Shown one piece after another: positions 34,101-60,224 of a DNA stretch of 64,000 bases. Origin of the DNA: Xiphophorus maculatus (taxonomy: Eukaryota; Chordata; Actinopteri; Cyprinodontiformes; Poeciliidae). The DNA is taken from positions 11,771,698 to 11,835,697 of the forward strand of contig NC_036443.1 of NCBI RefSeq assembly GCF_002775205.1, read 5' to 3'. The notes under the pieces were generated by a model that saw only the letters and a program-made list of their open reading frames with translations, was not told the origin of the DNA and did not search any database. The translations under genes were made by a program, and so were the position numbers. Each line of letters begins with the position of its first letter. Position 1 is the stretch's first letter.

Positions 34101-35758
34101 ATATTCATATTAATTATTAGTACCGTTTCAAATTCGGAGTCACTGATCTGGGCAAAACCACTGGCAACGTGGGCCATGCTGAACCACTGGTCTGCAAGCT
34201 TCTTCCTCTGATCGGGAGTGGCCATTCTGCATAATGCCTCCATCAGGGATGACTGCAAGTCATAATCTGCAAAATAGAATGTTTCTGTATTTATTTTGGA
34301 TGAAAAAAGCAGCAGTATTTGTTTAAAAAATATAAAAATTAAATAATAATATATTTTTTTAAAAACTTACCACCACCCTCCACAATCCGACCTGCCAGTT
34401 TGCTCCTGCAGAAAAATAAACGCATGTGGGTTCCAGCAAGCGTGGGAATTTTAGAAATCGGAACCACGTCGAGAAAACTAATTACACACATGATATCTGA
34501 AGCGTCTTGTGATGTTACGATTCTCCTGTTTTTCTTGAACTCCACCGGGAGTTTATCCAGAATTATGTTATATTTACGAATTGCCTGTCGGAGCAAAATG
34601 ATTGCGTTTATTTGCAGTCAAGACCTCCGTTTATCAGACTCAACATCATTCTCAAAAGAAGTTACACAAATTCTTCCCCACCTCTTTCTGGATCAGAATG
34701 TTGATTCTGGGGTCTATTGCCAACTGACCGACAGGATACAGGAAGGACTCAGTCACTTGGGAAGTTCCTGAAAGGAATGTTAGGGAATAAAGTTTGCAGG
34801 GAAAAGAAACACCTTTAGCCACTTACCGTCATCTGATTTTATGCAAATGACACACAAGTGTTACCAACAGCATTAACATAGTTGTATAATTGAACAAACA
34901 GGATTTCTAACTCTGTGTTAGTTTTCTCAACATTTTATTTTCAACTAAAAGACAAATGAAATGTGAAATTTACAGACATACCCTCTTTGCATGACTCATG
35001 AACTACCTGCAGCAGAAGAAATAGGAGAAAATATTTTAGGCAGAAAACATGTCGTTGCACTAAATGTGCTAACTGATCAACACAAACTCACCATTAAGGC
35101 ACTTAGGAAGTTCTCTGAGAGCTCAAACATGGTCTCATTCCAGTGTGGGCCGTGTTGGATCCACAGCTTCCTGCATTTCTCAAACCACTGTACCATGTAC
35201 TCAAAAAATAATGATAATAATTTAAAACCTGAAAATACTTACTTTGTAAACATTGTTGGATATGTTTTAGCAGCAAATACTTATCTTTTTAATTAGTCCT
35301 TGAGATATTAAACCTGAAAGTCCTGCCCCACTCGGTAATTTCAAATTGTTCCCACATTTGTAGAGGCTCGCAAGTCCCAAAATGGCTGATTTGGTCTCTT
35401 TATGATCCAAGCCCTAAAGAGTATAAAAGTTCTTTAGAGTTTTTTAATAGTAAAATTAAACTAACAGAATGATGAACAACTATTTGAACCTAATCTTACC
35501 CTGGTCACAAGTTTGTCCAATTTATTGAGGAACTGTTGGGAGCATTTAATGGACATGTCTTCAAATGTATTTCTCTCTAAGAACAAGTCGAGAGGCCGGA
35601 CATCTCCACTCTTCAACGCTGCGCTGATTATATTCTCCAACTGCACATACACATTTCAAGTTTTAGAATGTGGTTAGTTTCACAATTAATACTGGACTAA
35701 CCTTGAAATGAACTGACAGTGATGCAGACACAACCTGAGTGCTGGCGCTTGGAGCCAT
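19179..35758 (-). CDS. sycp2: Synaptonemal complex protein 2
   Basis: SYCP2 is a meiotic chromosome-axis protein that pairs with SYCP3 through a C-terminal coiled coil. I traced 44 coding exons from 5' to 3': 35735-35758, 35500-35640, 35285-35413, 35092-35196, 34982-35006, 34682-34767, 34490-34584, 34371-34405, 34124-34266, 33975-34027, 33723-33768, 33425-33523, 33240-33300, 32997-33145, 32716-32772, 32460-32546, 32249-32354, 31832-31947, 31195-31249, 31042-31087, 30878-30957, 30349-30788, 30124-30251, 29994-30025, 29690-29730, 29465-29508, 29254-29314, 28968-29130, 28808-28869, 28519-28707, 26980-27126, 26727-26843, 25926-26112, 24954-25270, 23476-23727, 23052-23082, 22795-22926, 22272-22426, 21954-22048, 21590-21683, 21399-21457, 19920-19998, 19598-19654, 19179-19235. 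They join to 1558 codons plus stop (human protein 1530). Landmarks: N-terminal armadillo-like domain ([17 protein letters not shown]), Spt16-like domain around [25 protein letters not shown] plus [18 protein letters not shown], and a C-terminal coiled coil ending [16 protein letters not shown]. Middle boundaries (exons 24-25, 30) are less certain. One AT-AC and one GC-AG intron are needed. Confidence 0.93.
23300..23455. mobile_element. hAT-like terminal fragment
   Basis: The sequence around 23385-23450 (CAATCGG, GATCAGCC, ATCGGTGCACTCCTA) resembles the ends of fish hAT elements, which typically begin near TAGGGGTGCACCGAT. No transposase remains. It lies in the SYCP2 intron immediately after the donor of the exon at 23476-23727. 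Identification rests on recall of the terminal motif. Confidence 0.4.
27560..28320 (-). mobile_element. Degenerate Tc1/mariner transposase relic in a SYCP2 intron
   Basis: Read on the minus strand, about 27700-27770 encodes WTRDHWA, a stop, then [12 protein letters not shown]. This matches the conserved Tc1/mariner catalytic-core stretch (consensus KVLFSDESRF), with the stop and with Glu changed to Gln. About 27590-27650 resembles the following SVTVWA region. The element sits in the 1.4 kb SYCP2 intron between the exons at 28519 and 27126. It is broken, and its ends are not defined. Confidence 0.5.
31715..31825. mobile_element. Tc1-like terminal fragment beside a SYCP2 exon
   Basis: The run CTTTTCACATTTTGTCCCAT and what follows matches the usual terminal region of fish Tc1 elements. 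It ends just outside the SYCP2 exon at 31832-31947, on its donor side. Only this end is present. Confidence 0.5.
35197..35284 (-). other. sycp2: AT-AC intron of SYCP2 (88 bp)
   Basis: The exon before ends LIKK (AAA AAG) and is followed by ATAAGTATTT. The exon after begins ATG GTA CAG TGG (MVQW) and is preceded by GAGTAC. Human SYCP2 reads LIQKMVAW across this junction, so the boundary is fixed by homology to the codon. Reading through meets a stop within seven codons. The donor is ATAAGT, not the U12 consensus ATATCCTT, and no U12 branch site (TCCTTRAC) is visible, so it looks like the rare U2-type AT-AC class. A GT-AG alternative would leave a 52-base intron and add 11 foreign residues. Confidence 0.75.
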
Positions 35759-35936: not shown

Positions 35937-36014
<78 letters not shown>

Positions 36015-38747: not shown

Positions 38748-40069
38748 CTAAATGAAATGCACCATGCTGTCTTCACATTCTTTAGGCACTGTTAGCTTGT
38801 AGTTTTGACAGACTAATTTATAATTCTTTCCATAGTTGTTGTCCCAATATTCAGCCCCACAAACTTTGTATTGGATAGCAAACTCCAGCTGCGCTCCTGG
38901 TCGAAGGGAGGGAGGGACTGGTAGGTGGAAACGAAATGTATCGCAACTAAATTCCTGCCCTCTTCCTCCTTCTCCGTCGCAGGTTTTGGTGACAGTGGAG
39001 ACCCAGGAAGCCTTAGTTTCTGCAGAACCTTTCCACTCTGTAAACGAATACCGAACTTCAACTTCTTTCTCAAAGTCTAAATTTAGGACTTGCGTGATTC
39101 CGATAATGCCCAGTTCAAAGCACAAGACCCTCTCCAGACACACTTTCTGTTCGTAGAGATGCTGCAGGAACTCCGGCTGGTCACCGGGCTGTTGGGCAAA
39201 AACCGGCTTTAGGTATGGCAAGTTAATCTCAAGATGCCTTCCATCTGTCATCTCGGCGCCCATCAGGAGTCTGAAGGTAACATGTTGTGGCACAAATGGG
39301 TCCTCGCCTGATTTAAAAACCCTAACGTCTTCCAGGTCGAGGCCTAGAGAGTCGACAAACCTCACGCCAACACCTCTGCTCTGTTTCTTTTTGTTCTGGG
39401 TGGCAGAAGGCAGAGAGCGTGACCGTTGTCGGATGATGGGCTTCGGCGTAGGCTCACAGGTGAGGAAGCTGTGGGAGTCTTTTGGCCGAGTAACTCTTGG
39501 ACTTGGCGGGCGGATTGGGACAGGCTTCCTGACGGTGTTGGGCTTGTCAGCTCGAAGCATTTCGTTCACGTTTATAGTCAAGAAGGACCTAGACACACTG
39601 CTGCAGCTGGACAATGGCTGTTGAGATTTGGGGAGGAGTATCCTCTCATGTCCAAGGAACCACCCTCTTTCCATGTTCTCTGCTGGCCCTTCTGACCTAT
39701 ATAAATACACATTAAAATTAGCTTTGAAGCAGAATCACTTAGTATGTCACATTAAGTTTGTAAATCTGCTCTAAGCAAAGTGTTTAGGTTCGAAATTAAA
39801 CTTTTTTTTTAAGAAAGAAAAAGAACAGCCTTTTTATGAAACTGTACTGCCAGAAACTTCGAGTGGGCGTGTCTGCTGGTAGTACGTGCCCGACTGCACA
39901 GTCTGTCTGAACAGCTGCAGCAATACTGAAAATGCCCTTAATTAATGAGCATCAAATAAGGAAACGTGCATCAAACAAGCAAACTTTGACCTCACCTGAA
40001 CATACACAGATATGAAGCGTGTTGCATGCAGGCTGCAGAAACACTGTCGCTTATGGCGCGATCCTCCAT
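38748..40069 (-). CDS. ppp1r3d: Protein phosphatase 1 regulatory subunit 3D (R6)
   Basis: This is a glycogen-targeting subunit of PP1. The main exon (38748-39696) encodes RQRSRSLPS, a likely 14-3-3 site that is also present in the human protein, then VGVRFVDSLGLDL (the PP1-docking region) and a CBM21 glycogen-binding domain with YSFTEW and AEYWDNNYGKNY. It ends MVHFI, close to human WIHFI. An upstream exon (39996-40069, MEDRAISDSVSAA...) joins in frame through a CAG/GTGAGG donor and a TATATAG acceptor. Its ATG is directly preceded by an in-frame TAA, so it is the first possible start, giving 340 residues. Without this exon, translation would begin at ATG 39674-39672 (308 residues; human 299). 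The human gene is a single coding exon as I recall. The docking motif lacks the usual Arg/Lys before V-x-F. Confidence 0.92.
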
Positions 40070-42405: not shown

Positions 42406-45400
42406 ATGTGGTGCAACATGGGCCCCATCATGCAGGAGCGCACGGCTTCCACAACACTGAAGCGCGTCGTTTCCAAGGAGAAGATACGAGTTAAGAATAC
42501 CGAGAATAGCGGGTCACTTACCAGGTAGGCATTTTCTACATTAATGGGACTGAACGTTATGTTATGGATTGCATTTTATTTTAAAAGCCATGCCTGATGC
42601 TATTTTCTGTTTCGTAGCTCAAAGAAATGTAACAAGACCACGAAAGCAATGAGCCAAATGAAAAATGGTTTCCCGGGACCAGATAAGGATAAGGACACAG
42701 CAGCCCTACAGAGGGTATGTGACTGGCACCGTTACTAAGTAATATATGCAATAGGTATAAATACCACAGGTTACTACTGTTATTACTACCCAGTAGCTGA
42801 TATATACACAGAAATGGGCCAGATTAGACTGTTCAAAAGTTACACCTTTCATTCAGCACAGCACTGGGTAATAAGTAAGCTCAGATGTGTTGTACAATTA
42901 GAACTGATTAGCTTAACACCTGTTTGACACCCACCTAAGGGTTTCCAACTGGCTTTGCTGAGTTGGTTGTATTAAGTCAGGTCACAGGGCTCTCATTCAA
43001 GAAGCCTGTGTAAGTCCAGGCACAGGTGGTATCCCTTCAGCATGAATGACATCCTTATGCAGCCAACAAACGCACACCGGCTGAGCAGCTCATAGTGTAG
43101 CCGCACTGCTTGAACCAATTCACGTTTCCTCATTTTACAATCAGAAAACTTAATGTAGGTTTTGAGGGGTTTTATGTTATAAACATAAGGGTGAACTTTC
43201 ACTTCACACTTGCATGTGAAGTGGAAGTAAGATTATACATACTCTACCAGTTTTGCACATCTAGGGATTGATAGATCTGGTGTCTCTTCCTCGTAATATA
43301 ATTAAAAATCAGTCCGATTCAGTGGAAAGTTCCACCGCAGATTCTTTATTTATTTACACAAATAACCCTTGACCTTAAACATTCATCGTAATTGTGGCTC
43401 AGACTGTATGTTTGGGATTGCTTATTCCATGTGTTTGATGTGTTTGCTATATGGCTCGTGGCAAACTGAATACAGAACTTCTTGTGGTTTTGTTTCAACA
43501 ATCACTATTTTTAGAGTGTACATATAATTGTTCACATGTCTACAGATTCTCCAACCTGAACAGCAAATCTTTTTTTCTCCTCCATGCAAGTCTTTCTGCA
43601 TGTTTGATTAGGGCTCTCCTTGTCTGGTGTGTCAGTGTAGTGGACATCCCTGTCTTGATATGTTTGGAATTGAGCCGTACTCTTTTAATTTTCTGATAAT
43701 GGATTGAACAGTACTCTGAGTTATTTGGAGCTTGGCATATTACTTTATGGGACTGAGAATCATTTTGTGTTGTAATGACTTTTCTGCAGGGTGCTCAGTC
43801 TAAAGGTGGCAGGATAAAGTCAGGTGCGTCTCAAAATGCAAGCAAACTCTCAAGGTAAGAGCTAAAAGTGGCTTGTATTATTTGTAAGTGCTTTCCTTCA
43901 GGTACATTAAATCCCTAAATCCTCCAACAACTTCTCCCCCATTTCCTAAATCCATCTGTCTCTTCTCAGCCCTGAAGCAGAAGGAGACTTTAGACCTCAA
44001 CTTCGCAAGCAGTCATCTGCACACAGGAAAGAGGAGAAACGAGAAAATCAGCGGCTGTCACCGTGCGGCACGGAGCTCCTCCCAAATCGTCAGGGGATGG
44101 GAAAAAATCGTAGAGCGCTCTCTCTGCCTATTTCTCCAATATCAGGGCTACGGATGTCGCCATCCCACCCGCTAATGCATTCCCCAGCTCCGACCCCAGA
44201 AGCACTGCAGCATCACTACAACAACAAGGAGGACGACTCTGACAGCGCTAGCGATCTGTCAGACTCTGAGCGGCTGCCTGTTTTGCCCTCGCCGTGCACC
44301 CCGTGCACCCCGCCCCACCTCAACCTGCGGGCGGAGATCATTAACACTAACGACTTCCTCCCAGATATTCCAGGACCCCATGGGATGGCGGGGGACGAAG
44401 ATGAGAGTGAGAAACCCGCGTACACATACTCTGATTTCCTGCCTCCTCCCTTCAACTGCTGGAGCCTGAGACAGCTGGCGGTGTTTCTTCACACAGAGGG
44501 TCGCGGGGCGCCCCGACCCAAGCCTGTGGGGCCCTTAGAGAAGTACCTGGAGAGGCTGCTGCAGCTGGAGTGGCTTCAAATCCAAACGGTGCAAGCAGAG
44601 AGCAGCCGCCCCCCTGGGGGTCGCACAAGACCACAGAGCTTCCCTTCTTCCACGGCCGTGCACTCGGCCAGACCTCACACCGCACCATCTTCCCGACTCA
44701 ACTCCCCCAAAGGGCTGCGGCACGGCTCGCGAGCCTTCCCTTTCACACCTGTTAACAACCCGCCATCTCCTGCCTCAGCCCAGCAACAGCTCTCCCGCTT
44801 TCCAGTGTGTCCGCAATGTCACATGCGCTACCCTCTCTGCAACGGAAGCTGCTCTGCCTACGCCTACCAGCGCCACTCGCGGCTCAGCCCATTGCTTGAG
44901 CGCAGGGCGCGCCCAGGAGCAGCGGCGAAGCGGAGCAGCAGCGAGACCCGAGCCGCCTCTTCTGAAGGTATTAGCCCTGGAGCACAAGGCGGAGGGGGAG
45001 GGGCCCGAACACCAGTTAGCCCCTCAGCTGGGAGGAGTCACCTCAGGCACATGCAGGCTGCGGGCAACACCCGGAAACAACCCCAGGAAGCCGGCACTAA
45101 CCAAAAGGGCAGAGGGCAGGTGAGGAAAAGCCGCGTCAGAGCCAACTCTGAGACAGATGTGAAGAAGGAGCCCAGTGGGATCAAAGGTGCTGCCACCGAG
45201 AAACGGGGACATCCCGGAAGCAAGAGAGAGCTCATTACTTCCAAAAGAGACGAGAGGGACTGTCAGAGGGCCGAGGCGGGAAGTCAGGCCTCTAAAACTG
45301 CCACGAAAAGAGCTGCTAAAGACCCAGCGAGTCTCCCCAAAGCTCCACCTAGCACCCACAGCATTCCTAAACAAAATGGCAAAACAAAAAATGTGCACTT

Positions 45401-45413
45401 TGTTGCTAAGTAA
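42406..45413 (+). CDS. fam217b: FAM217B family protein, function unknown
   Basis: Four coding exons (42406-42524, 42618-42714, 43790-43854, 43970-45413) join to 574 codons plus stop. The start ATG follows an in-frame TAG about 35 bases upstream. An alternative ATG four codons in (42418) is equally possible. Family signatures are DDSDSASDLSDSERLPVLPS, then HLNLRAEI, YSDFLPPPFNCWSLRQLAVF and EKYLERLLQLEWLQIQTVQ. All match human FAM217B in order. The long C-terminal half is basic, low in complexity and poorly conserved. It contains a C-x2-C-x6-C-x3-C cluster (44808-44852) that I do not recall in the human protein. The gene is larger than the human one (about 380 residues). No biochemical function is known to me. 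Confidence 0.9.
43560..43790 (-). mobile_element. Tc1-like fragment in FAM217B intron 2
   Basis: About 43600-43760 matches the antisense 5' portion of fish Tc1 transposase genes (phrases such as GGGCTCTCCTTGTCTGGTGT and ATGGATTGAACAGTACTC). It ends close to the acceptor of FAM217B exon 3. The piece is heavily mutated. Confidence 0.6.
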
Positions 45414-59677: not shown

Positions 59678-60081
59678 ATGCTGTTCTTTCACACAAGTAT
59701 GATGGTTTTCCGAATACTGGTTCTGATAATTTTGCAAGGTAAGTTTTTATTTTGTATTTTTTAATATATATTTATATTATTTAAAATATATTCAGACAGT
59801 AGTCGCCTTGGTTTATTTTTTGGGGTGGGGGGTGGGGGTGTACTTATTTGACATATTGTTTCACGTCCTTTTAATAAAGGCGTTTTGATGTCCCACGTGA
59901 AATCCGAGAGCGACCCCAGAAGTGTCCCGGACTCCAAGGTGATGGGCTCCACGGGATCGGAGGCTTCAGAGCCGTCTGAGACCTCAAGGTCCAGACAAAA
60001 GCGCTGCACCTGTTATTCCTACACGGACAAAGAGTGTGTCTATTACTGCCACCTGGACATCATCTGGATTAACACTCCTGA
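59678..60081 (+). CDS. edn3: Endothelin-3 precursor, first two coding exons
   Basis: EDN3 encodes a secreted vasoactive peptide that signals through endothelin receptor B, important for neural-crest cells. Exon 1 (59678-59738) encodes a hydrophobic signal peptide, [20 protein letters not shown]. Exon 2 (59880-60081) encodes an acidic/Ser-rich propeptide, the furin-type site SRQKR and the mature 21-residue peptide at 60005-60067. The mature peptide starts [14 protein letters not shown] and ends HLDIIW, with the four cysteines and C-terminal Trp in place. It differs from human ET-3 at three positions near the N terminus. INTPE follows, as in big endothelin-3. The exon ends in phase 2 at a GTAAGA donor. 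The remaining exons, including the endothelin-like repeat, were not found by 64000. Two further in-frame ATGs at codons 8 and 9 could also start. Confidence 0.93.
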
Positions 60082-60224
60082 GTAAGATAGGATTCTCAAA
60101 ATAACTGATCTGCTCACAATGTATCTTTTACAAGTCATTGTACCTGTAACAGCATGACCCTGTGTTGTTTAGCTCTGTTTGCGTTCCCTTCCACTCTGAC
60201 CTGCTTCCCCTGTCCGTGCTGAGC

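Follow-up and report, generated by a model that had tools for sequence, protein, structure and literature searches.

The question raised by this locus is whether an 88-base stretch inside SYCP2, lying on the minus strand of the window (the whole 64,000-nucleotide stretch of DNA that was analysed), is an intron that begins with AT and ends with AC and, if it is, which spliceosome removes it. An AT-AC intron in SYCP2 is already known, as it has been reported for human (PMC8280824), and that paper rules out presenting it as an unreported intron. What is added here is the fish case at the position reported for human, a GT-AG intron at the same site in a paralogue, and a tandem GAG/TAC acceptor.

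SYCP2 and the place of the intron

The start-codon exon of SYCP2 (MAPSASTQ...) occupies 35702..35758 on the minus strand and ends at a GT donor. Coding exon 2 (35500..35640) has an AG acceptor and a GT donor. Coding exon 3 (35285..35413), which encodes GLDHKETKS...GLIKK in the armadillo-like domain, lies upstream of the AT-AC intron, and coding exon 4 (35092..35196), which begins MVQWFEK, lies downstream of it. GT-AG introns accompany coding exons 5 (35006-34982), 6 (34767-34682), 7 (34584-34490), 8 (34405-34371), 9 (34266-34124), 10 (34027-33975), 11 (33768-33723) and 12 (33523-33425), and a GT-AG intron precedes coding exon 13 (33300-33240), all on the minus strand. The ends of these 13 coding exons were set from sequence, frame and similarity, and all of them join in one open frame. 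The introns between them are GT-AG in 11 of 12 cases and AT-AC in one. A long run of TA dinucleotides is found at 35940-36011, about 180 bases upstream of the start exon.

The first eight coding exons match the Pfam family SYCP2_ARLD (PF18581) at 4.3e-45, with 154.2 bits against a curated cut-off of 27.8, and mouse SYCP2 is the only protein of solved structure that the fish protein matches. The gene is accompanied by those of a CBM_21 protein that is PPP1R3D-like (38751-39734, minus strand), a FAM217 protein (43950-45410, plus strand) and an endothelin (59852-60082, plus strand). We take PPP1R3D, FAM217B and endothelin-3 to be the neighbours of SYCP2 on human 20q13, an order that fits the CBM_21, FAM217 and endothelin genes found here. 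Because the neighbour families resemble this human set, the gene in the window is in all likelihood SYCP2 rather than SYCP2L.

The intron (35197..35284, minus strand) is the third from the start-codon exon and is in phase 0, as determined from sequence and frame. Its 88 bases have AT-AC ends, ATAAGTATTT...TTTTTTGAGTAC, and a fuller reading of these ends gives ATAAGTATTTGCTGCTAAAACATATCC...TTATTTTTTGAGTAC. The 5' splice site ATAAGT (35279..35284) is U2-like, with A at +4, G at +5 and T at +6. The 3' end is GAGTAC (35197..35202), in which the AC splice site lies at 35197 and an AG stands three bases earlier. The intron is flanked by the codons GGA CTA ATT AAA AAG (GLIKK) and ATG GTA CAG TGG TTT GAG (MVQWFE), and AT-AC splicing would give the exon junction AAG/ATGGTACAG. 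Retention of the intron brings stops into the coding frame. The exons joined over it give an open frame and a junction that aligns without gaps to mouse SYCP2 (5iwz, 7.6e-39), which reads QGLVQK/MVSWFE at this point (QGLVQKMVSWFE). Frame and homology fix the place of the intron, and both of its ends are non-canonical together. The 704-Mb assembly held a single match to a 261-base query that covers the site. Inside the intron, on the minus strand, canonical-looking sites are also present, namely GTAAGT (35242-35237, with ACAAA before it) followed by TTTTCAG (35235-35229).

In-frame, open GT-AG, GC-AG and AT-AC pairs spanning at least 40 bases were listed by a script over 35085-35415, with AT-AG pairs left out. 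Among the pairs in this listing, 35284/35197 alone restores the aligned residues exactly. The same interval holds 11 in-frame GT-AG pairs, and these canonical alternatives were rejected, as every one of them drops conserved residues or adds residues absent from both mouse SYCP2 and the fish paralogue. The sequence-only reading had proposed an AT-AC intron of 88 bases in SYCP2 at this place, and the proposal is borne out by the sequence, the frame, the mouse alignment and the PF18581 match. Its exon boundary was also correct; the flanking residues that it named, LIQK and MVAW, are the human ones, and those of the fish are LIKK and MVQW.

Acceptor choice and spliceosome class

As a control, the same genome was read at the voltage-gated sodium channel intron that follows DNFNQQKKK and that we take to be a known U2-type AT-AC intron. 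The search returned 23 matches, among which are seven places where the matched exon starts right at this intron (C1, C6, C7, C10, C16:2802718, C20 and C24). The weaker matches C2 and C16:2827737 (next exon only matched) were left out of the count, and 13 other matches lie close to the seven and seem to be additional exons of those genes. The donor AAG/ATAAG was found at 7/7 places read, and so was an AC acceptor before the conserved exon. The wider donor context AAAAAG/ATAAG is common to SYCP2 and several of the sodium-channel places. At two of the seven (C6 and C7), the exon after the intron starts TTAGG, so an AG just past the AC might be used there, judging from the letters alone. Passages of PMC2831892 state that SCN4A intron 21 requires the major spliceosome and describe sodium-channel AT-AC introns with G at +5.

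The alternative that survives best is AT-AG splicing, in which the AT donor is joined at GAG/TAC, either as the sole product or as a minor isoform alongside the AT-AC one. Choosing the AG of this tandem acceptor adds one Tyr in frame (KKYMVQW). The GAG, at 35200, precedes the AC by three bases and would be met first in scanning from the branch site, but neither mouse SYCP2 nor the fish paralogue has a residue there, and poor pairing is expected between an A at +1 and a G at the last position. Such splicing could be helped if the first A underwent A-to-I editing, which part of PMC4176328 describes for a few human AT-AG introns, whereas the human intron is named as AT-AC in the relevant passages of PMC8280824. 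AT-AG splicing is considered unlikely on this balance. Since SYCP2 has an AG three bases before its AC, unlike the seven sodium-channel acceptors, a one-Tyr isoform made in this way is possible but less likely than the AT-AC form. The likelihoods given to the different explanations overlap, because an AT-AG isoform could coexist with the AT-AC form.

Removal by the minor spliceosome as a U12-type AT-AC intron is the label that a passage of PMC11353295 gives to the human intron, and AT-AC ends agree with it. The SYCP2 donor, AAAAAG/ATAAGTATT, is of the GTAAGT type with the G at +1 changed to A, and against the U12 AT-AC consensus ATATCCTTT it has 4/9 mismatches, at +4 to +7. The U12 donor ATATCCTT was sought in the intron and its consensus was absent. 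The U12 branch site TCCTTAAC was sought near the 3' end, where the best matches depart from the consensus at 3/8 positions. In two of these weak matches the A stands 11 and 17 bases, respectively, before the intron end, a distance usable by a U12 intron, and this counts as weak evidence against the U2 reading. For the U2 branch site, no strong candidate stands out in the intron. In print, human intron 5 belongs to the major class, whose AT-AC introns are described as unresponsive to CENATAC loss (passages of PMC8280824). The U12 assignment was rejected on the mismatches of donor and branch site and is held to be very improbable.

Use of a 52-base GT-AG intron at 35280-35229 (ATAA/GTATTT...TTTTCAG/GTTT), with 12 residues inserted in frame, has even less in its favour. 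Such an intron is open, in frame and canonical at its ends, but its donor is weak and it is very short. It would also leave a mostly hydrophobic 12-mer at a point where neither mouse SYCP2 nor the paralogue has any residue, and it does not fit the human AT-AC intron. An assembly or sequencing error in a GT-AG intron is scarcely credible, as it needs two errors that jointly yield the one usual alternative pair, at an intron that is AT-AC in print for human.

The stretch is very probably the AT-AC intron of fish SYCP2 and, as far as its sequence can indicate, would be excised by the major (U2-dependent) spliceosome. The favoured reading is a U2-type AT-AC intron common to fish and human SYCP2. 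Independence of the minor spliceosome, which would be expected of such an intron, is reported for the human major AT-AC introns taken together. The earlier assignment to the U2 class is supported by the U2-like donor, by the absence of a convincing U12 branch site and by the major label of human intron 5. The earlier statement that the two ends deviate together, and not through one sequencing error, also holds, since two bases would have to be wrong for a GT-AG intron here.

In the mechanism proposed for this intron, positions +3 to +6 of ATAAGT would be paired by U1 and U6 in the manner of an ordinary GTAAGT donor, and a branch site within the AT-rich last 30 bases would be used. The first A and the last C would stand in for the G-G contact normally made during the second step, which would account for the joint deviation of both ends. 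Reversal of the AT-AC state would need two substitutions at once, and the state would persist; a change at a single end would break the A-C contact, which may explain this persistence. The same "trapped" argument is made for sodium-channel introns in a passage of PMC2831892.

The human intron in print

Human SYCP2 intron 5 is given as a major (U2-type) AT-AC intron in the Fig 5E legend of a 2021 paper (PMC8280824), and the legend and text describe its RT-PCR. Passages of the same paper name TAF2 intron 1 as another human major AT-AC intron and report that, taken together, the major AT-AC introns of human show no response to CENATAC loss. A published supplementary table is described as covering 85 major AT-AC introns. 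According to Table 2 of PMC7367187, AT-AC introns account for 0.01% of the U2-type introns annotated in human and for 0.02% of those in zebrafish. PMC8280824 was the only source found for SYCP2 together with an AT-AC intron, and no wider claim of absence from print is made. SYCP2 is not named in the portions of PMC10639083 and PMC13149111 that were available. For zebrafish sycp2 (among PMC6259924, PMC7062287 and PMC12106479), the passages available concern intron 8 and not the AT-AC intron.

Passages of a 2024 paper (PMC11353295) assign c.89 of human SYCP2 to exon 4 and c.946 to exon 14. They also describe the variant c.298-3dup beside a splice site, the intron ending at c.298. The U12-type label that these passages give to this intron has a general citation as its basis there. 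By arithmetic, codon 100 starts at c.298, which matches the codon boundary of the fish AT-AC intron. Codon 100 of human SYCP2 is presumably the Met of QK/MVAW, and the matching Met in the mouse chain 5iwz is chain residue 103, which fits codon 100 if the chain has three added residues. In fish, the positions equivalent to human c.89 and c.946, which come about 30 to 40 bases later, fall within coding exons 2 and 12, so the number of a human exon appears to be that of the fish coding exon plus two. On this count, human intron 5 would be the fish AT-AC intron. We infer that human intron 5 and the human intron ending at c.298 are one intron, at the position of the fish AT-AC intron. The suggestion made from the sequence, that the intron might be conserved beyond this fish, finds support in human intron 5 (legend and text of PMC8280824) and in the c.298 boundary (passages of PMC11353295).

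The presence of an AT-AC intron in fish SYCP2, together with the one in print for human, suggests an origin before the fish-mammal split. The fish sequence and the passages of PMC8280824 support the U2 class over the U12 label in those of PMC11353295, which bears on the reading of human c.298-3dup.

The paralogue and other known introns

A search of the genome for the family found one other place, C21:24401000-24420000 (G000; L004 1501-1629). With a single exon it scores 22.7 bits, below the family cut-off, and with three exons joined it scores 50 bits, above it. Its downstream exons resemble those of SYCP2 (DYEFQVSLLEALCRL and KLDKFWIDFNVGS), and from this sequence likeness it is taken for SYCP2L. 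Its intron, GTAATC...TTGCTCAG, is GT-AG. It can be hypothesized that SYCP2 and SYCP2L hold one ancestral phase-0 intron in two U2-like states, AT-AC and GT-AG, as a natural case of a major-spliceosome intron whose two ends changed together after gene duplication and that has been locked since the fish-mammal split, and that the fish GAG/TAC may give two isoforms one Tyr apart; this combined proposal is tentative and is given somewhat less than an even chance. A paralogue pair with different intron ends is a place to ask how AT-AC introns arise and persist.

Compared with known systems, the SYCP2 intron shares its codon boundary and its phase with that of the paralogue (GLIKK/MVQWFE in SYCP2, GLTAK/VMLWFE in the paralogue), but it has AT-AC ends and 88 bases where the paralogue has GT-AG ends and 64 bases. 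It shares its terminal dinucleotides with U12-type AT-AC introns and differs from them in a donor that is off consensus and a branch site with at best 3/8 mismatches. The sodium-channel U2-type AT-AC intron (SCN4A intron 21 and its paralogues) has AAG/ATAAG, G at +5 and an AC acceptor as SYCP2 does; however, it belongs to an unrelated gene and position and has no AG directly before its AC. Human SYCP2 intron 5 is in the same gene, is AT-AC and of the major class, and would lie at the same phase-0 boundary by exon count and c.298. The fish intron, with its 88 bases and GAGTAC end, is compared with the published description of the human one.
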